Made by a program: the position numbers and the translations under genes. The notes beneath the pieces were generated by a model. The model did not search any database and had not been told where the DNA came from. It worked only from the letters and a program-made list of their open reading frames with translations. This document shows, one piece after another, positions 3,919 through 35,997 of a DNA stretch of 36,116 nucleotides (positions are counted from its first letter, which is position 1; every line of letters begins with the position of its first letter). This DNA is from Candidatus Aminicenantota bacterium (GTDB lineage Bacteria; Acidobacteriota; Aminicenantia; Aminicenantales; UBA4085), in the NCBI GenBank assembly GCA_026393865.1, contig JAPKZI010000067.1:1-36116 (forward strand), in the 5' to 3' direction.

Positions 3919-5784
3919 ATGAGGAAAAACTTTTTGATCGTGGTTTTCGTGTTCGCCCTCATCTTCTCGCTGCAGGCGCAGATGCCGCCCCAGCAGCAGA
4001 TGAAGCTCGAGGATGTCCAAAAGGCTCTCAGCCTGGTCGATAAGCCGCAGCCGGTGCCCGATAGATATAAGGCCGGCTTCGAGGCCATCAACGCCAAGGA
4101 CACCATGGCCATGCTGACGTTCATCGCGTCCGACTGGACCGAAGGACGCGAGACCGGCACCAAGGGCTACATGATCGCGGCCGATTACGTCGTGTCGCTC
4201 TTCAAGATGTGGGGCATCAAGCCCGCCGGCGACATGCCGGGTTTCGGCGGCGGCCGAGGCATGGGCGGCGGCCAGCGCGGCGGAACTCCGGCAACGCCCC
4301 CCGAACGGACCTACTTCCAGGAGTTCGGCCTGAAATCGACCTCCGATGTCCAGAGCTCGATAAGCCTCACCATCAATAAGGCCGGCGCCATCCAAACCCG
4401 CGATTTCGCTTCGGGCGTCGATTACCAGGCCATGGGCGGCCGCGGCGGCGGGAGCGGAATGGGCTCGATGACCGGGCCGGTCGTCTTCGTCGGCTACGGC
4501 ATTCAGGAGCCCTCGATCAAGTTCGACGAGCTCGCCGGCCTCAACCTCAAGGGCAAGATCGTCATCGTCCTGACCGAAGCGCCCGGCCGCGACGATCCCA
4601 AATCGCCTTTCCAGGCCAAGAAAGAGCTCAAGGAGAAATACTTCCCGGCGGCCCCGGCCGGCGGCCAGAGAGCCCCCGGCGGCGCGGGCCAGCCCGCTCG
4701 GTTCAACAAGATCACCGAGCTCCAGAAGCTCGGACCGGCGGCTATTTTCCAGGTGGCCAACGTCAACAATGACGCGGCGACCTTCCGGAACATGTCCCGG
4801 CCCGCGGTCAGCCACATCAACGACGACCGGCCGATCATCAACCGGCAGCGGACGAGCCTCGCGATCCCCGGCGTGACGGGCGGCGGCGGCCCGATGGGCG
4901 GAAGCAACGTCCCGACGATGACCATCACCCGGGACATGGCCAACGCCATCCTCGGCGTCACCGGGCAGAAGATCGACGACCTCAAGGCCCAGATCGAGAA
5001 GACGTTCAAACCCGCCTCCAAGGACCTGGCCGGGACCGGGATCACCATGACCACGACGGCCAAGACCGCCCTCGTCCGGGCGTTCAACGTTCTCGGATAC
5101 ATCGAGGGCAGCGATCCGAAGCTGAAGGACGAATATGTCGTCGTGGGCGCCCACTTCGACCACAACGGGATCTGGCAGGACTACATCTGGAACGGCGCGG
5201 ACGACAACGGCTCCGGCTCGATCGGGGTCATGAACATCGCCAAGGCGATCGCGACCAATCCGGTCAAGCCGAAACGCTCGATCGTGTTCGCTCTGTGGAC
5301 GGGAGAAGAGGAAGGCCTTCTCGGCAGCCGCTATTACACCCTCAATCCCGCCTTCCCGATGGACAAAACCATCGGCTATCTGAACTACGACATGATCAGC
5401 CGGCCGTATGACGCCACGACCATCGCCCGGACGATGCAGCGCTATGGGGTGCCCGGGGCCGAAGCGCTGGTCAAGAAGATCCGCGCGCCCTGGTTCGTCA
5501 CGGTCAACCTGACCGAGAACACGCCGTTCGCCGACATCGCCCGCGAGATGAACAATTACGTCGGGCTCGACCTGGCCCTGCAGAGCAGCGCCCTCGGCGT
5601 GGGCAGCGGCGGGTCGGACCATGCCTCGTTCGCCCAGGTCAAGAAGCCGTTCGTGTATTACATGGCGGCCATGACCTCAGACTACCACCAGCCGAGCGAC
5701 AGCGTGGAAAAGGTCAGCGGAGAACTCATCGCCAAGATCAGCCAGCACGGCTATCTGACGATCTTCAAGTTCGCCGACCAATAA
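3919..5784 (+). CDS. Secreted M28-family zinc metallopeptidase with PA-like insert
   Basis: This 621-residue protein starts at the ATG at 3919, seven bases after AAAGGAGA; the same frame stays open upstream but has no better start. Residues 1-20 are a signal peptide (MRKNFLIVVFVFALIFSLQA). The M28 di-zinc site is complete: H412 (VGAHFDH), D428/D429 (NGADDNGSG), E463-E464 (TGEEEG), D491 (NYDMIS) and H590 (SDYHQPSD). This predicts an active exported aminopeptidase-like enzyme. The middle (VVFVGYGIQEP through LKGKIVIVL) is a protease-associated type domain inserted before the peptidase core. Two Gly/Met-rich stretches, near residues 110-124 and 173-185, look like disordered loops. The length agrees with PA-containing M28 proteins. 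A strong terminator follows at 5797. Confidence 0.93.
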   Translation: MRKNFLIVVFVFALIFSLQAQMPPQQQMKLEDVQKALSLVDKPQPVPDRYKAGFEAINAKDTMAMLTFIASDWTEGRETGTKGYMIAADYVVSLFKMWGIKPAGDMPGFGGGRGMGGGQRGGTPATPPERTYFQEFGLKSTSDVQSSISLTINKAGAIQTRDFASGVDYQAMGGRGGGSGMGSMTGPVVFVGYGIQEPSIKFDELAGLNLKGKIVIVLTEAPGRDDPKSPFQAKKELKEKYFPAAPAGGQRAPGGAGQPARFNKITELQKLGPAAIFQVANVNNDAATFRNMSRPAVSHINDDRPIINRQRTSLAIPGVTGGGGPMGGSNVPTMTITRDMANAILGVTGQKIDDLKAQIEKTFKPASKDLAGTGITMTTTAKTALVRAFNVLGYIEGSDPKLKDEYVVVGAHFDHNGIWQDYIWNGADDNGSGSIGVMNIAKAIATNPVKPKRSIVFALWTGEEEGLLGSRYYTLNPAFPMDKTIGYLNYDMISRPYDATTIARTMQRYGVPGAEALVKKIRAPWFVTVNLTENTPFADIAREMNNYVGLDLALQSSALGVGSGGSDHASFAQVKKPFVYYMAAMTSDYHQPSDSVEKVSGELIAKISQHGYLTIFKFADQ

Positions 5785-5796
5785 GCGATTTTTTCA

Positions 5797-5836
5797 GCGG
5801 GGGGCGGGCCGAGGCCCGTCCCCCGCATCCTTTTTT
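5797..5836 (+). terminator. Intrinsic terminator after the M28 peptidase gene
   Basis: A G+C-rich hairpin (arms 5797-5810 and 5813-5826, 13-14 pairs including one G-U) is followed by ATCC and TTTTTT, with a further T-run at 5847-5853. The minus side lacks a matching U-tract, so it probably serves the plus-strand peptidase gene rather than glnS. Confidence 0.8.
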
Positions 5837-5851
5837 CTGTATTCTCTTTTT

Positions 5852-7549
5852 TTATTCGTTCTCTGTGCCGGCCTTGGTGATCCGGACCCACGTGTCGCGG
5901 AGGGTGACCGTCCGGTTGAAGACGGGCTTGTCCGGTGAGGAATCCCGGATGTCGGCGCAGAAATAGCCGAGCCGCTCGAACTGGAACCGGCTCCCCGGAG
6001 GCGCCCCCTTCAGGGCGGGCTCGAGCTTGGCACCGGCGATGACCTCGAGCGACTTGGGATTGAGGTTGGACTTCCAGTCCGAGCCCTCCTCGATCTCGTT
6101 GGGGTCCCGCTTCGTGAACAACGTGTCGTAGAGACGGACCTCGCCCGGAACGGCGTGATCGGCCGAGACCCAGTGCATGGTCGCCTTCGGACTCCGGCCG
6201 TCGGGAGCGTCCCCTCCCCGGGTCGCCGGATCGTAGGTGCAGTGGAGTTCGACGACTTCGCCGGTCGCCGGGTCCTTCTTGACCTCGACACAGGTGATGA
6301 AATAGGCGTAGCGCAGGCGCACTTCGCGGCCCGGCGAGAGCCGGAAGAACTTCTTCGGCGGATTCTCCATGAAATCGTCCCGTTCGATATAAAGCACCCG
6401 CGAGAACGGGACCTTCCGCATCCCGGCGGCCGGGTTCTCGGGATTGTTGACGCAGTCGAGCTCCTCGACCCGGCCTTCCGGATAATTGACGATGACGACC
6501 TTGAGCGGCCGGAGCACGGCCATGGCCCGCGGGACCGTTCGGTTGAGCTCCTCGCGGATGAAGTTCTCGAGCAGGGCCACGTCGACGATGCTGTTGGCCT
6601 TGGCCACGCCGATCTCGTCGCAGAAACGGCGGATCGAGGCCGGCGTGTATCCGCGCCGGCGCAGTCCTGAGATAGTCGGCATGCGCGGATCGTCCCAGCC
6701 GCTGACGGTTTTCTCTTTGACCAGCTCGAGGAGCCTGCGTTTGCTGAGGACGCTGTGGCTGAGGCTGAGCCGGGCGAACTCGATCTGCTGCGGCCGGTGG
6801 ATGCCGAGCTGGATGAGGAACCAGTCGTAAAGCGGCCGGTGGACCTCGAACTCCAGGGTGCAGATGGAATGGGTGATGCCCTCGATCGAATCCGACTGGC
6901 CGTGGGCCCAGTCGTAGGTCGCGTAGATGCACCAGGCGTCGCCTCTCCGGTAATGGTGGGCTCGCCGGATCCGGTAGAGGACGGGATCGCGCATGAGGAG
7001 GTTGGGTTCGGCCATGTCGATCTTCGCCCGGAGCGATTTCGAACCGTCGGGAAACTCGCCGGCCCGCATGCGCCGAAAGAGATCGAGGTTCTCCTCGACG
7101 CTCCGGTTCCGGAACGGGCTTTCCTTTCCCGGCTTGGTCAGCGTGCCGCGGTGCTCGGTCAACTGTTCCGCGCTCAGGTCGCAGACGTAGGCCTTCCCGC
7201 TCCGGATCAGGTCGACGGCGAACTCGTAAAGCCGCTCGAAATAGTCGGAGGCGTAGAACTCCCGGTCCTCCCAATCGAAGCCCAGCCAGGAGACGTCCTC
7301 CTTGATCGACCGGACGTAGTCGGGCTCCTCGGTCTCGGGATTGGTGTCGTCGAAGCGGAGGTTGCATTTCCCGCGGTAATCGGCGGCCAGGCCGAAGTTG
7401 AGGCAGATTGACTTGGCGTGGCCGATATGGAGATAGCCGTTGGGCTCGGGCGGGAACCGCGTGTGGACCCGGCCTTGGTTCTTGCCGGCCTTGAGGTCCT
7501 CGTTGATGATGTCGCGGATGAAATTGTTCTTGGGTTTTGTCTCGCTCAT
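5852..7549 (-). CDS. glnS: Glutaminyl-tRNA synthetase
   Basis: This 565-residue class I aminoacyl-tRNA synthetase charges tRNA-Gln directly with glutamine in the cytosol. The N-terminus reads [16 protein letters not shown], carrying the HIGH signature, and the KMSKS equivalent is VLSKRRL. The C-terminal half continues as the two-barrel anticodon-binding region, with [10 protein letters not shown] and [11 protein letters not shown] near the end. The length is close to the E. coli enzyme (554). The start codon overlaps the gltX stop as ATGA at 7546-7549, so the pair is translationally coupled. Having GlnRS means that the Glu-tRNA-Gln amidotransferase route is not needed for glutamine. Bacterial GlnRS is generally regarded as an ancient acquisition from eukaryotes. 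Confidence 0.97.
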
Positions 7550-28441: not shown

Positions 28442-29032
28442 TCATGGACCTTCGGCCCGAGCCGACAATATCTCCACGATCTCTTCCAATTGGCCGGCCT
28501 TCAACGGCAGGGTATAGGACAGGAGGACGTTTCGGCCCTCATGGGCCAGAAGAACGACGATCCCGTCCTTCAAGAATCCCCGGAAAAAAGGCCCCGTATC
28601 CGCGACGGCCGGAAATCGAATGTCATGGGTTTTTCGAAAACCCTGCCATTTTTTCAGGACGATGCGCGAACGGAGTTCGGATCGTTCGTCTCCGCCGGCG
28701 GCTTCGTAAACGAGGACCCCCAGGATGCGATCCTCTTGGACGCGGGCCGGAAGGGCCCGGCAGAGGGCCAGGAGGGGCTCGAGGCAGGGTGCGCAGTAAA
28801 AGCTTTCGATGTCCATGAGAACCCAGCAACGGCACCGATCCATGCCGCGGGCCGTCTCCGGCCGGTCTTTGTTCGACGGAGCGGCGGATGACGGCCGGGA
28901 CAGCAACCATAACGATACGACGGCGAGGGCCGCGGCGCGAACAAAAATTAAAAGCCGGGCCCTGCGCCGCGATAATCGATCCGCCGCCCGGGAAGCGGAA
29001 ACGGCCCTCAGAACTTCTTCGTTCCTATTCAT
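28442..29032 (-). CDS. Membrane-anchored thioredoxin-fold protein with CAPC motif, extra cysteines
   Basis: This is a 196-residue protein. The first 26 residues are basic (RRRAR), then a hydrophobic segment 27-45 (LLIFVRAAALAVVSLWLLS) serves as an anchor or signal, placing the rest outside the cytoplasm. C80-A-P-C83 in the phrase MDIESFYCAPC is the redox-active site of a thioredoxin-like or AhpC/TSA-like fold. Close by are C67 and C69 (RCRCW) and C91, which is unusually many. IRFPAVADTGPFF is the likely cis-proline region, and LKAGQLEEIVEILS the last helix. The ATG overlaps the propeller gene's stop by eight bases (29025-29032), so it is the last cistron of the peptide operon. It is a good candidate for oxidising, isomerising or reducing disulfides in the twin CX6C peptides, but that is inference. 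Confidence 0.78.
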   Translation of the reverse strand: MNRNEEVLRAVSASRAADRLSRRRARLLIFVRAAALAVVSLWLLSRPSSAAPSNKDRPETARGMDRCRCWVLMDIESFYCAPCLEPLLALCRALPARVQEDRILGVLVYEAAGGDERSELRSRIVLKKWQGFRKTHDIRFPAVADTGPFFRGFLKDGIVVLLAHEGRNVLLSYTLPLKAGQLEEIVEILSARAEGP

Positions 29033-29984
29033 AAAGGATCCTGTATTTCTTCAGGGTGATGCCGTCATTGGCTCGGACGTACAAAGAATGGCCGCGGTCG
29101 AAGTAAAGACAGTGGCTCGTGTCCGGAAGGGTGAACGTCGTCAAGAGCTCCCCCTCCGTGTTCAAAACGAAGACCGTCCGGCTGGGGGCCTTGGCCAAGC
29201 GTCCCCCGAGGACGAGGACATGTCCCCGGCCGTCCAAAGCGATATCTTTAAAACACGTCTCCCCCGGCAGGGTGAAGGACGAGATTTTTTTCGTCTCGGC
29301 CTTTTTCCCGCCGAGCAGATTCCGCGACCAGAGGCGTTTTCCGTCCGGCGACCATTTCTCGATCCGGTCCTGGAAAAGGTAGGCCAGATAGAACCCCCCC
29401 TCCGCGTCCGGGACGAAGCTGATCGAATCCATGAGGACTCCCGCGTTTTTATCCACGTAAGCGATCTCGGACAGGACTTTTCCTTCGCCGTTCAAAACCA
29501 GGATCCTGCCGGGCTCTTGAAAGCTCATGACGGCCACGGCCACTTGATCGTCTCCGAGGGCCTTGAGATGAGCGATGAGCGCCGGGCAGGGAATTTTCTT
29601 TATGAAATTCAATTCCCGGTCGAAGACATAGACGCCGGCGACGTTCTGGTCGGTGGCGAAGAGGAAATTCGGCGAGGCGTCCAAGAGCCGCGGGACCATG
29701 AACTCGCCGGGTCCCTGTCCCCTGCGTCCCGTTTTTTTGACGAGCGCCCCGCGGGGATCGAACTTTTTAAGTGAGTAATCCATGGCGTCCAGGACATAGA
29801 TGAAGCCGTCGGGATCGGCGGCGACGCCGGTCCATTGGAACAAGGCTTCGTCATCCAAGGCTCCGATGGAAAGCACTTCTTTGAGGGTGATCCTGAAGAC
29901 GGCATCCTCCCCGAGGCCCGGCGGGGCCGCCCCGAGGGAGATCGCCAGGAGGGACAACCAAAGCATCCATCTCGGTCCGTTCAT
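29025..29984 (-). CDS. Secreted 6-bladed beta-propeller (NHL/TolB-like) protein
   Basis: This is a 319-residue protein. Residues 1-25 are a signal peptide (MNGPRWMLWLSLLAISLGAA then PPGLGE), and there is no lipobox cysteine. The body has NHL-type blades: FQWTGVAADPDGFIYVLDAMDYSLKKFDPRGALVKKTGRRGQGPGEF, then further repeats of a strand phrase plus DxxxxxIxxxxxx. RRGQGPGEF is the hallmark of exported '6-bladed beta-propeller' proteins, which are abundant in Bacteroidota and Acidobacteriota-like genomes. Such propellers bind peptides or other ligands and are not enzymes by default. The gene has GGGAGGACGG before its ATG and lies 57 bases after the second peptide gene, with no promoter between. 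It is therefore most likely a partner, receptor or chaperone of the peptides. Confidence 0.86.
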   Translation of the reverse strand: MNGPRWMLWLSLLAISLGAAPPGLGEDAVFRITLKEVLSIGALDDEALFQWTGVAADPDGFIYVLDAMDYSLKKFDPRGALVKKTGRRGQGPGEFMVPRLLDASPNFLFATDQNVAGVYVFDRELNFIKKIPCPALIAHLKALGDDQVAVAVMSFQEPGRILVLNGEGKVLSEIAYVDKNAGVLMDSISFVPDAEGGFYLAYLFQDRIEKWSPDGKRLWSRNLLGGKKAETKKISSFTLPGETCFKDIALDGRGHVLVLGGRLAKAPSRTVFVLNTEGELLTTFTLPDTSHCLYFDRGHSLYVRANDGITLKKYRILYE

Positions 29985-30041: not shown

Positions 30042-30269
30042 TCAGTTGCCGATGGACGGATCGATATATTTTTTACAGAAAGTGTAACCGATGATGCAGA
30101 TCACCGCCCCGAACGGGCCTGTAGCCTGGGTCATGATGTCATCGAAACAATCGGACAGGGCCCTTTCGCAGATACCGCCGGAACCATCGGCCTCGAACCC
30201 GGGAAGGCCGACCGCGAACGACAGACAGATCATCGAAAGCGCGACCAAGAGACGAATTCGTTTTGTCAT
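30042..30269 (-). CDS. Small exported twin CX6C peptide B (unknown family)
   Basis: This is a 75-residue precursor. I start at the ATG at 30269, four bases after the peptide A stop; the longer frame to 30308 would overlap peptide A. Residues 1-24 form a signal peptide (TKRIRLLVALSMICLSFAVG), cleaved near LPG-FEA. The mature part of about 50 residues carries C34-x6-C41, a 16-residue spacer and C58-x6-C65. The first pair lies in CERALSDC and the second in CIIGYTFC, followed by KKY. Peptide A has the same pattern and the shared CERA, IGYxFCxKY phrases, so the two are tandem duplicates. The two pairs suggest a helical hairpin held by two disulfides, in the manner of twin CX9C proteins. Function unknown. 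Confidence 0.75.
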   Translation of the reverse strand: MTKRIRLLVALSMICLSFAVGLPGFEADGSGGICERALSDCFDDIMTQATGPFGAVICIIGYTFCKKYIDPSIGN

Positions 30270-30273
30270 GGTC

Positions 30274-30540
30274 TTAGCCTTGGATGTATTTCTCGACATA
30301 CTTTTCACAGAAGCCGTAGCCGATCAGGCAGAAGCCGAGGAAGATAGGCAGCGTCGCCCCCTGGGAAAATATGCCGGAGATGATGGCGTCCGAGACGCAC
30401 TTGAGGGCCGCCCTTTCGCAATAGGAGCTGTCGTTCTCCTCTTCGGCCGATAAGGATGCCGCGAGCATGAAGCCGACCAACGAAACCGTGAGGACCAGAG
30501 CGATGGCCCGGCCCGACCAAGACCTTGTCAATGTGTTCAT
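30274..30540 (-). CDS. Small exported twin CX6C peptide A (unknown family)
   Basis: This is an 88-residue precursor with ATG at 30540, behind AAAGGAGA (spacing 7). Residues 1-32 form a signal peptide (basic SGR, hydrophobic AIALVLTVSLVGFMLAASL, cleavage about SLSA-EEE). The mature part of about 56 residues starts with an acidic stretch and has C41-x6-C48 in CERAALKC, 22 residues, and C71-x6-C78 in CLIGYGFC, then EKYVEKYIQG. The spacer is hydrophobic (IISGIFSQG, LPIFLGF), which would let it act on or in a membrane. It is the first cistron of the operon, immediately downstream of a sigma-54 promoter. No named family comes to mind. Candidates are a secreted signalling or toxin-like peptide, or a structural helical-hairpin protein. 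Confidence 0.77.
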   Translation of the reverse strand: MNTLTRSWSGRAIALVLTVSLVGFMLAASLSAEEENDSSYCERAALKCVSDAIISGIFSQGATLPIFLGFCLIGYGFCEKYVEKYIQG

Positions 30541-30566
30541 GGGAAATCTCCTTTCGATGCTGGATA

Positions 30567-30726: not shown

Positions 30727-32400
30727 TCAATTCTTTTTGACGATCGGGATCTTGATCTTCCTTTTTTTGGCGAAGGCGATCGCCTCGGGGTAGCCCGCGT
30801 CCGCATGGCGGACAACACCCAGGCCGGGATCGACCGTCAGGACGCGTTCCAGGCGACGGGCCGCCGAACTCGACCCGTCGGCCACGATCACCATGCCGGC
30901 GTGAATCGAAAGTCCGATGCCGACGCCGCCGCCATGGTGGACGGAAACCCAGGACGCGCCGTTGACCGCGTTCAAGAGGGCGTTGAGCACGGGCCAATCG
31001 GCGATGGCATCCGATCCGTCCTTCATCCCCTCGGTTTCCCGATGGGGTGAGGCCACCGAGCCCGCGTCGAGATGATCCCTTCCAATGACGATCGGGGCGC
31101 TGATCCGGCCGCTCTTAACGAGCCGATTGATGACGGCGCCGAAGCGGGCCCGGTCGCCGTAGCCGAGCCAACAGATCCTCGACGGCAGGCCTTGGAACCT
31201 GACCTGCTTCTGGGCCTTGCGAATCCAGCGTTCGAGGGCTTCGTCCTCGGGAAACGCCTTCAACACGGCCTCGTCGGTGATCAGGATGTCCCGAGGTTTG
31301 CCCGACAGGGCGACCCAGCGGAACGGCCCCTTCCCGAGGCAAAACAAGGGCCGAATATATTCCTGAACGAATCCGGGGATCTCGAAGGCGTCCGCGACGC
31401 CGGCTTTCTGGGCTTGGCCGCGGATGTTGTTGCCGTAGTCGAAAACCCTCGCCCCCCGCCTCTTGAGCTCGAGCATGGCCCGGACGTGAGCGGCCATGGA
31501 GGCGGTGGACCGCTTGATATAATCCCGGGGATCTTCACGGCGGAGTCGGAGCGCGCTCTCGTACGGGATGCCGCGCGGCACGTAGCCGTTGAGCTCGTCG
31601 TGGGCCGAGGTCTGGTCGGTCAGGATGTCGGGAGTGACTCCGCGCCGGACGAGCTCGGGGAGGACATCGGCCGCGTTGCCGAGGAGGGCGATCGACAGCG
31701 GCCGGCCCTTTTTTACGGCCGCGTCGGCGAGCCTGAGGGCTTCGTCGAGGCTCTCCGTCATCGTATCCACGTATTTGGTTTCGAGCCGGCGCCTGATCCT
31801 CCGCCGATCGACCTCGATCACGATGGCCACGCCGTCGTTCATGGTCACGGCCAGCGGCTGGGCGCCGCCCATGCCTCCGAGTCCGGCCGAAACGACGATC
31901 CGGCTTTTGAGGCTCCCTCCGAAATGTTTCTTGGCCGCGGCGGCCAGAGTCTCGTAGGTGCCCTGGAGAATGCCTTGCGTTCCGATATAGATCCAGCTTC
32001 CGGCGGTCATCTGCCCATACATGGTCAGCCCCAACGCTTCGAGCCGACGGAATTCATCCCAGGTCGCCCACTTCGGGACGATCATGGCGTTGGAGATCAG
32101 GACGCGGGGAGCCTCGGCATGGGTCTTGAAAACGGCGACGGGTTTTCCCGATTGAACGACCAGCGTTTCGTCGTTCTCGAGCTTTTTCAGGCTGTCGACG
32201 ATGGCCCAGAAACAGTCCCAGTTCCTGGCGGCTTTTCCCGTTCCGCCGTAGACGATAAGTTCCTGAGGGTTTTCCCCCACGTCGGGGTCGAGGTTGTTCA
32301 TCATCATCCGCAGAGCGCCTTCTTGGGACCATCCTTTGGTCCGCAATCCCGAGCCCCTCGGCGCTCTCAGCGGTTTATACGTCTTGGAGTGCGCGGCCAT
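30727..32400 (-). CDS. hutU: Urocanate hydratase
   Basis: This is a 557-residue enzyme. The start is the ATG at 32400 behind AAGGAGG; longer forms upstream lack a ribosome site and add no conserved sequence. It converts urocanate to imidazolonepropionate in histidine degradation, using tightly bound NAD. Recognisable are [19 protein letters not shown] near the N-terminus, [18 protein letters not shown] (NAD site) and [34 protein letters not shown] contains the conserved active-site cysteine region. The C-terminus has [21 protein letters not shown]. The length matches the family (about 555). No hutH, hutI, hutG or ftcD lies in the window, so the gene is an orphan here. It has its own promoter at 32439-32468. 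Confidence 0.97.
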
Positions 32401-32438
32401 GGCTGCCTCCTTGGAATCCTTGCAATTGTCTAGGGGAG

Positions 32439-32468
32439 AATATAGCATAGAGCCTCGAGGAATAGCAA
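32439..32468 (-). promoter_or_regulatory. Promoter of hutU
   Basis: The minus strand has TTGCTA (32463-32468), an 18-base spacer and an extended -10, TGCTATATT (TATATT at 32439-32444), about 40 bases before the hutU ATG. It lies back to back with the promoter at 32502-32530. Confidence 0.58.
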
Positions 32469-32501
32469 AAACAGGGCCGCGAAAAAAGAACAAAAAATCG
32501 G

Positions 32502-34647: not shown

Positions 34648-35997
34648 TCAGCCTTCGAGCTCTTCGATGATCGAGCGGAGATAATAGGCGGGCGGGGTGA
34701 TCTTCCGGTAGAAAGCGTCCTTGATCCGGACGGTCAGGCTTTCAAAGGAGCGGACGTCCTCCGGATTGCTCCAATTGTCCATATTGAGCTTTTCCAGGAT
34801 GTCCTTGAGGACCGGCAGGCTGATGATCTCGTTCGTGTAGCGGGGCAGGGTCCCGCCGTCTTTCTCGCCCATCCTCACCCAGCGGAGTAGGATCTTCCGC
34901 AGCGATTCCTGGTGATTGATCAGCTCCTGCTTGAGGAAGAACTGGTCTTTCGGCGATTCCGTCTGGGACAGTTTTTGAGTCTGCTTCTTGGCGTTTTCCA
35001 AGACCTGGCTCATGGCCCGGATGAGGGATTCGCCGTCAAGGATGAGGCGCTCCCGGTTCTGGAAATAGCTGATCTCACCGTTGAAATCCAACGGCTCGGT
35101 CTTCCGGTACTTTTCGAGCGTTTCGAACACGGCCTGGAAACTGAGATCGTCGAGCCCCTGCTTCCGCTCTTCTTTCTTGACGGGGACGGGTTCGCGGAAT
35201 ATGGGTTCGGGCTGGGAGGGGCTCTCGCGTTTCATGAAATCGTCGATGAACTGATTGATCTCGGGCATTTTGAACCCGGGGCGCGGCGGTTCCGGCTCGA
35301 AGCTCAACCGCTCGAACCGCTCCGGAGGAACGAACTCGGGCTCTTCGGGAACGGCCAGCGGCTCGGCGAAGGCTTCGCGGACCGGCGCCCGTTCGAAAGC
35401 GGGCCGCTCGGGACCGATGGAGTCGGTCTCTAATAGCTCTTTGATTTTCTTCAGCCTGGTCAGTTCCTGGTCCAGGTCGGACGCCATCGCCGACTCCTCC
35501 CTCCGCTCGAAAGCCGGAGGCGGGGCCGGAACAGGAACGGCGGCGGAGGCCTCCAGCGCGATACCGAACCGTTCTTTCAATTTCGTCCGGATCTCCGCGA
35601 CCTTCTTTTCGGACGTTTGCCTGAGCTCGGACAGTTGAAGGCTCAGATCGCCGACCTTGCGGAGCTCTTCAAGGGTCAGTGCGGTCAGCTTCTCGATGTC
35701 CTGCTGATAGCGCATGCCCCGCTCGAGATGGTCCCGCATCCGGTCCTGGAGGGTCTTGCGGGCCGTTTCGAACTCTGAGATCGCGCCCCGGAATTCCTTG
35801 ATCGTCCCCCGTTCTTTCTCGAACTCCCCCTCGATCAGAGTTTTCTTGCGCTCCGCGTCCTCCTTCTCCCGCCTCATGTTGAGCTGTAGATCACGCTCCA
35901 CCTCTTCCTTCCGCTTTTGGAGGACCTTCTCCAGATTGCTCTCGATCTCGTTGATGATCTGTGCCGATTCGTCCAACATGTCATCCTTCGGAGTCAT
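34648..35997 (-). CDS. Coiled-coil protein of unknown function
   Basis: This 449-residue protein starts with ATG at 35997 and GAAGGAG seven bases upstream. Residues about 5-150 form a long charged coiled coil (SNLEKVLQKRKEEVERDLQ, ERKKTLIEGEFEKERGTIK, LSELRQTSEKKVAEIRTKL). Residues 150-275 form a Pro/Glu-rich, probably disordered linker (VPVPAPPPAFERRE, VPEEPEFVPPERFERL). Residues about 280-449 are a compact helical domain (LDDLSFQAVFETLEKYRKTEP, YFQNRERLILDGESLIRAMSQVLE, FLKQELINHQESLRKILLRWV). No signal peptide or membrane segment is visible, so it is likely cytosolic. The shape suggests a scaffold or structural protein, but I recognise no family. It reaches nearly to the window edge; the last 119 bases upstream hold only its ribosome site and perhaps a neighbouring gene's end. 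Confidence 0.85.
   Translation of the reverse strand: MTPKDDMLDESAQIINEIESNLEKVLQKRKEEVERDLQLNMRREKEDAERKKTLIEGEFEKERGTIKEFRGAISEFETARKTLQDRMRDHLERGMRYQQDIEKLTALTLEELRKVGDLSLQLSELRQTSEKKVAEIRTKLKERFGIALEASAAVPVPAPPPAFERREESAMASDLDQELTRLKKIKELLETDSIGPERPAFERAPVREAFAEPLAVPEEPEFVPPERFERLSFEPEPPRPGFKMPEINQFIDDFMKRESPSQPEPIFREPVPVKKEERKQGLDDLSFQAVFETLEKYRKTEPLDFNGEISYFQNRERLILDGESLIRAMSQVLENAKKQTQKLSQTESPKDQFFLKQELINHQESLRKILLRWVRMGEKDGGTLPRYTNEIISLPVLKDILEKLNMDNWSNPEDVRSFESLTVRIKDAFYRKITPPAYYLRSIIEELEG

Follow-up and report, generated by a model that had tools for sequence, protein, structure and literature searches.

Paired CX6C peptides, an NHL-type propeller and a thioredoxin-fold protein form a conserved gene module in Candidatus Aminicenantota

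One question that is raised by this locus is what two small exported peptides, encoded side by side and with the same arrangement of cysteines, are and with which partners they work. The window (the whole stretch of DNA that was analyzed, 36,116 nt) is contig JAPKZI010000067.1 of assembly GCA_026393865.1, from a Candidatus Aminicenantota bacterium whose genome is 86% complete. A sequence-only reading suggested an unnamed family of secreted, disulfide-stapled helical-hairpin peptides, yet it overlooked the conserved module to which the peptide genes belong, together with genes for a beta-propeller and a thioredoxin-like protein. The explanation that we hold to be probable, if only just, is that stapled-hairpin peptides act with a secreted NHL propeller and that their disulfides are made or proof-read by a dedicated thioredoxin-fold protein (Trx); the disulfides, the complex and the action of Trx on the peptides are inferred, and no biological purpose has been established.

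All genes of the module lie on the minus strand and are transcribed in the order urocanate hydratase (30727..32493, directly 5′ of pepA), pepA, pepB, beta-propeller, thioredoxin-fold gene and photolyase. pepA (30274..30540) is an ATG open reading frame of 88 amino acids, with a strong Shine-Dalgarno sequence, AAAGGAG (30548..30554, minus strand), 7 nt before the start. Its two CX6C motifs are CERAALKC (Cys41–Cys48; 30397..30420, minus strand), in predicted helix 1, and CLIGYGFC (Cys71–Cys78; 30307..30330, minus strand), in predicted helix 2. pepB (30042..30269), the paralogue with the shorter spacer, is an ATG open reading frame of 75 amino acids that aligns to pepA and carries CERALSDC (Cys34–Cys41; 30147..30170, minus strand) and CIIGYTFC (Cys58–Cys65; 30075..30098, minus strand). 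An alternative GTG start would lengthen PepB to 88 amino acids; the 75-residue form from the ATG matches the homologous sequences. Besides the urocanase and the photolyase, the neighbors examined are an FkbM methyltransferase and a flavin oxidoreductase. Further away, at 34648-35997 on the minus strand, a coiled-coil-like protein of 449 amino acids is encoded, without a Pfam match at E 1e-5.

What had been read from the letters alone was found again: two precursors of 88 and 75 residues, both with export signals; exactly four mature cysteines in each (41, 48, 71 and 78 in PepA; 34, 41, 58 and 65 in PepB); the spacing CX6C-X22-CX6C in PepA and CX6C-X16-CX6C in PepB; the common text CERA and IGYxFCxKY; and a gap of 4 bp between the two genes. 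Of the 235 stop-to-stop segments of 55–140 amino acids in the window, 2 show the twin CX6C pattern, compared with a mean of 0.15 of ~362 in shuffled sequence. Between the window and a genome of the same genus, dN/dS is 0.59 for PepA, where changes are few, and 0.28 for PepB, and only 2 of ~40 residues differ between the mature PepB cores, in contrast to the diverged signal peptides. Chance open reading frames are ruled out by homology, by the Shine-Dalgarno sequence, by purifying selection on mature PepB and by the shuffles, and a lipoprotein is ruled out by the lack of a lipobox before the first mature cysteine. An Rfam scan of the peptide region gave no match, and a scan of the region for promoters and terminators stayed near chance level.

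How widely are these peptides distributed? A PepA query retrieves PepB at E = 1.5e-6, and, judged by their sequences, the two are homologous. At E up to 1 the PepA search reached homologues in 47 of the 99 relatives, and a joint peptide profile, run over the 94 genomes of the window's order (Candidatus Aminicenantes), detects 43 at E up to 0.01 and 38 at E up to 1e-6. Genomes that bear the peptides usually carry the A/B pair, and the homologous loci come from records labeled Candidatus Aminicenantes or Acidobacteriota; nearly all of the genomes compared are MAGs. No family or match for the peptides was found in Pfam, in NCBIfam or, by sequence profiles, in the PDB. A 'Clostridiales' MAG (L101/L175) was considered as a third phylum and rejected, as it carries the same peptides as a genome of the window's own order (G019) and its public label is probably wrong.

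In alignments of 34 PepA and 34 PepB sequences the four cysteines and the glycine of CxxG are invariant (C71, G74 and C78 around the second motif of PepA; C58, G61 and C65 in PepB). The signature is mostly CxxG[YWF]x[FW]C with a Y or F three residues on, and conservation is limited to Cys, Gly and aromatic positions. Since the aligned members had been chosen by their cysteine pattern, the search was repeated by a profile without a cysteine requirement, and 92 of the 103 distinct homologues found in this way retain all four cysteines. The 11 exceptions are eight sequences left incomplete by the local alignment or by the end of a contig, one apparent frameshift, one that lacks only C3 and one that lacks both C2 and C3. 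Exactly four mature cysteines are present in 34/34 PepA and 32/34 PepB, and hydrophobic Sec-type signal sequences in all members. PepA and PepB fall on separate branches (66/68 placements correct, support 0.81), which indicates that the duplication is older than the diversification of the order and that both copies were kept. The spacer between the motifs is usually 20–25 residues in PepA, with 37–44 glycine-rich, glycine-zipper-like residues in one group, and 13–20 in PepB. In Candidatus Saccharicenans subterraneus (L104/L173) PepB is apparently frameshifted just before its last cysteine, due to an assembly error or to decay.

The next question regards the partners of the peptides. The gene located 57 bp after pepB (29025..29984, minus strand) encodes a secreted NHL-type six-bladed beta-propeller of 319 amino acids, which meets the Pfam gathering score for PF17170 (DUF5128; E 3.8e-7, 30 bits against a cut-off of 22.9) and whose profile matches NHL propellers in the PDB with E values down to 1.3e-33. 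Its 3′ end is overlapped by 8 bp by the start of a gene (28442..29032, minus strand) for a secreted or anchored thioredoxin-fold protein of 196 amino acids. No Pfam model matches the window's thioredoxin-fold protein itself; the profile of its family matches StoA in the PDB (E 0.0035), and the CxxC active-site motif, which is CAPC here (Cys80–Cys83; 28784..28795, minus strand), is invariant in 26/26 aligned sequences.

In 41 peptide regions (the window and 40 others, weak matches included) a simple pattern detected the propeller in 34, and a profile search of the same regions gave 40 propellers in 39 of them and 30 thioredoxin-fold genes. The order and strand of the module are constant, with median gaps of 12.5 bp between A and B, 55.5 bp between B and the propeller and −8 bp between the propeller and Trx. 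Across the 94 genomes of the order, the propeller clade, delimited at E up to 1e-95 by a cut that was set after the score gap had been seen, is present in all 38 peptide genomes and in one more, G053, where 274 bp separate the propeller from the end of the contig. Members of the Trx family occur in 36 of the 38, with two contig-edge cases in addition. Peptides, propeller and Trx are thus usually present together or absent together (Fisher p ~1e-25 for the propeller and 4e-21 for Trx, not corrected for kinship and descriptive only). In five genomes (G030, G061, G037, G041, and G025) the Trx match is on a different contig, so its presence does not merely reflect linkage; at L052, L053, L056, L060, and L063 the Trx gene is unlinked or absent.

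As a control we looked at ~54 loci with paralogous six-bladed propellers, where a twin-cysteine peptide was seen only once (L145) and a Trx-family match never, which rules out a general rule that every six-bladed propeller has a cysteine peptide. At L125, L157, and L140, four to six paralogous genes for six-bladed propellers stand in tandem, with no twin-cysteine peptide. Distant modules with strongly diverged peptides exist elsewhere in the phylum (L180, L182, L186, L174, and, in another class, L188), and four distant single peptides (L177, L178, L179, and L184) have no propeller adjoining. In most of the window's family and in others (L004, L007, L009, L018, and L020; distantly L180) the module directly follows urocanate hydratase, and this recurrent position suggests a long-standing site on the chromosome that is passed on vertically.

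One option is that the peptides serve as signals for which the propeller is the sensor, or as thiol relays in the redox control of the envelope, without any structural part in a stable complex. NHL propellers frequently have protein-binding or sensor roles, PknD is among the PDB matches of the propeller profile, and the spacers evolve fast. Yet receptor kinases and regulators show no consistent linkage to the module, and what is conserved is a pair of peptides with strict cysteines, not a set of variable ligands, which leaves this option with very little weight.

The module was also found in a second phylum. Propellers from Ignavibacteriae MAGs (L107 and L108) have 29–30% identity and are directly preceded by the gene for a six-cysteine hairpin peptide; the gene that follows directly encodes MauE (PF07291, E ~1e-20) fused to a thioredoxin domain that is homologous to the Aminicenantes Trx family (hhalign probability 97.6%, E 3e-12). 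Scanning the class of G462 gave five further peptide genes, all of which (5/5) are followed by a propeller gene and by Trx, alone or as MauE-Trx. MauE matches PF07291 in the FCB modules with E values of 5e-11 to 3e-24, and at L105 the genes for A, B, propeller, Trx and a MauE-rhodanese fusion (5408-6325) stand in a row. An ABC-2 ATPase and permease directly follow the module in L196, L197, and L198, on the FCB side, and in L180, and these are possibly further module members. We can suggest, as one joint and tentative proposal that may well not hold, a secreted machine shared across phyla, in which one or two stapled hairpin peptides are obligate partners of the NHL propeller and dedicated substrates of MauD/MauE-type proteins, sometimes with ABC-2; under this proposal the module would represent a novel type of complex, in the envelope or outside the cell, or else of peptide effector.

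The nearest known arrangement in its logic is the mau cluster, given the MauE fused to or near Trx, the propeller and the small exported proteins with cysteines in the FCB relatives. This raises the possibility that the peptides serve as the small subunits in a binding complex or oxidoreductase not described before and resembling methylamine dehydrogenase, with the propeller as large subunit and with maturation by MauE and MauD, which are maturation factors. However, both the propeller type and the small subunit differ from those of methylamine dehydrogenase: a MauB-type propeller is ruled out by the profile, which favors the DUF5128/NHL type and gives no MauB match, and the peptides hold no conserved tryptophan, let alone the pair needed for a quinone cofactor as in MauA. 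Moreover, no cytochrome or cupredoxin partner was seen among the neighbors examined, and the window's own genome, at its 86% completeness, yielded no MauE. Such a complex is in our opinion hardly credible. In candidate families from Streptomyces reported by decRiPPter, MauE, and in one family also MauD, is encoded beside a cysteine-rich precursor and was proposed to act on the peptide (PMC7794033). These precursors have at least eight cysteines and belong to another phylum, and the passage on them mentions neither a propeller nor a paired CX6C hairpin (PMC7794033).

Do the cysteines form disulfides? AlphaFold2, given only the sequences of the window and the related loci, predicts helices at residues 40–58 and 64–87 of PepA and at 33–43, 45–50, and 52–69 of PepB. 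Its pLDDT is ~79–87 over the hairpin and moderate overall (means of 72.5 and 73.8, pTM < 0.5), so that both peptides are predicted, on a model only, to be helical hairpins. A Foldseek search of the PDB with the PepA model gave nothing significant (best E 3.1), and a hairpin this short is uninformative in such a search. In a CX6C motif the two cysteines are separated by two turns of the helix and lie on the same face of it, which makes the nested pairing C1–C4 and C2–C3 a natural one. Two observations support this pairing independently of the models. The FCB peptides (L107, L108, L195, L197, L198, and L199) have an extra cysteine in each helix at mirror positions, CX6CX3C...CX3CX6C, as expected for an antiparallel ladder; and in one homologue, a single case (L179:3232-3501, with no propeller adjoining), C2 and C3 are absent together while C1 and C4 are kept. 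The two nested disulfides remain inferred, as no protein data exist. Another mirror layout with six cysteines, CX3CX6C...CX6CX3C, is found at L145:3670-3885, upstream of a more distant propeller and with a CxxC protein before the peptide.

By these results the sequence-only reading stands in its main proposal, a secreted peptide family without a name, of helical-hairpin type and with its cysteine pairs conserved, in view of the missing Pfam, NCBIfam and PDB family, the 92/103 cysteine-complete homologues and the hairpin models. It had named unconserved cysteines and a non-helical fold as findings that would refute it; the four cysteines are kept when they are not required by the search, and the predicted fold is helical for both peptides. 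Of the stapling by disulfides, only the hairpin and the kept cysteine pairs have support so far. The analogy with twin CX9C proteins is not the nearest one. Twin CX9C/CHCH proteins and alpha-hairpinins are eukaryotic helical hairpins with two disulfides from paired CXnC motifs; their spacing differs from that of PepA and PepB, and no sequence relation was found. Sublancin has the twin CX6C spacing, and the glycocins (sublancin 168, glycocin F, pallidocin, and thermoglycocin) are the closest to our peptides in shape, fitting both the spacing and the inferred nested hairpin better. In glycocins two helices are nested by two disulfides and the clusters contain thioredoxin-like or DsbB-like proteins (PMC6405829), and a type with three disulfides was recently described (PMC12457901).

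This likeness is the base of the main rival explanation, a two-peptide bacteriocin-like system in which membrane-active, glycocin-like stapled hairpins are produced and the propeller, or in some loci the ABC-2 transporter, protects the producer. Such a system would fit the twin CX6C spacing and inferred nested hairpin together with a thioredoxin-like gene, the hydrophobic spacers that are glycine-zipper-like in one clade, the presence of two complementary peptides and the ABC-2 ATPase and permease that follow the module in four loci. It does not fit the export route: the peptides have Sec signals instead of double-glycine-type leaders with a C39 peptidase-transporter, no peptidase-transporter adjoins the peptide genes, and no glycosyltransferase was recognized among the neighbors in the window or the related loci examined. 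The locus is usually single in a genome and often at the fixed site after urocanate hydratase; PepA has no match in plasmids and PepB none in phages; the ABC-2 pair is missing from most Aminicenantes modules; and a joint presence with a propeller as strict as this is unlike known bacteriocins. We therefore regard a bacteriocin as unlikely, although it deserves to be kept in mind. The peptides are not glycocins: they have two paralogous forms and a beta-propeller partner, they lack the residue that carries the sugar in glycocins, in most cases a fifth, loop-borne cysteine, and their family profiles retrieved no glycocin from the PDB.

Another hypothesis is that the cysteines stay reduced, kept so by Trx, and bind a soft metal, Cu(I) or another, in the manner of copper-storage proteins, Cox17 and the Sec-exported bufferins. 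Bufferins are copper-chelating cysteine peptides, and PepA and PepB carry an export signal; the L108 peptide has a very weak match to DUF326 of the copper-storage type (E 0.12), and the MauE/DoxX proteins another very weak one to HvfX, the membrane partner of copper-binding RiPPs (E 0.083). Both matches are far below threshold, no conserved His or Met ligands are seen, and neither an MNIO (DUF692) enzyme nor a copper gene is present among the neighbors examined. MauE and VKOR are disulfide-forming proteins, and a VKOR homologue is encoded elsewhere in the window's own genome, which makes the formation of disulfides outside the cytoplasm plausible. Metal binding is in our view decidedly improbable.

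The mechanism that we favor, oxidized hairpin peptides working with the propeller, can be described as follows. PepA and PepB, as anciently duplicated small proteins, would be exported by Sec and cleaved, and each would fold into an antiparallel helical hairpin of ~45–50 residues with two nested disulfides. The thioredoxin-fold protein would form or correct these disulfides and be re-oxidized by a membrane partner, MauE in the FCB relatives and perhaps VKOR here. The propeller, exported alongside the peptides, would most likely bind one or both of them as small subunits or ligands. Against this mechanism count the moderate overall confidence of the models, the loci where Trx is unlinked or absent, the distant single peptides that have no propeller adjoining, and the lack of a MauE match in the window's own genome. 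A thioredoxin fold and a six-bladed NHL propeller are joined in one chain in NHLRC2 and SOQ1, with a CCINC motif and without a conserved operon (PMC6107167). Here they are separate secreted proteins that come with peptides, and the match to SOQ1 is a generic propeller match only (E 1.7e-4). By analogy only, the peptides are candidate natural substrates for thioredoxin-fold proteins that are coupled to NHL propellers, such as human NHLRC2 and plant SOQ1.

A stapled helical hairpin with a dedicated oxidoreductase is already known in kind, while the complete module of four parts may be a new category. It ties a real and unnamed peptide family to its partners in uncultured Aminicenantes and in a second phylum, and it points to an undescribed secreted system. 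The glycocin-type (CX6C)x2 pattern is met here in a Sec-exported setting without a glycosyltransferase, and the mirror-symmetric version with six cysteines is a possible scaffold. In the literature we found no paper that describes the peptide family or a peptide-propeller-Trx module, nor one on such a combination in Aminicenantes. In Bacteroidetes, peptides with the NVEALA processing motif are encoded beside a six-bladed propeller; no paper on NVEALA was found either. As the four genes are small and can be co-expressed in E. coli, the main claims are directly testable.

The PepA spacers of 37–44 residues, glycine-zipper-like and resembling a membrane helix, are found at L051, L052, L053, L056, L060, L063, and L064; L052, L053, L056, and L060 among these have no linked Trx gene, and at L052, L053, and L056 a membrane protein of 85 amino acids is encoded after the propeller.
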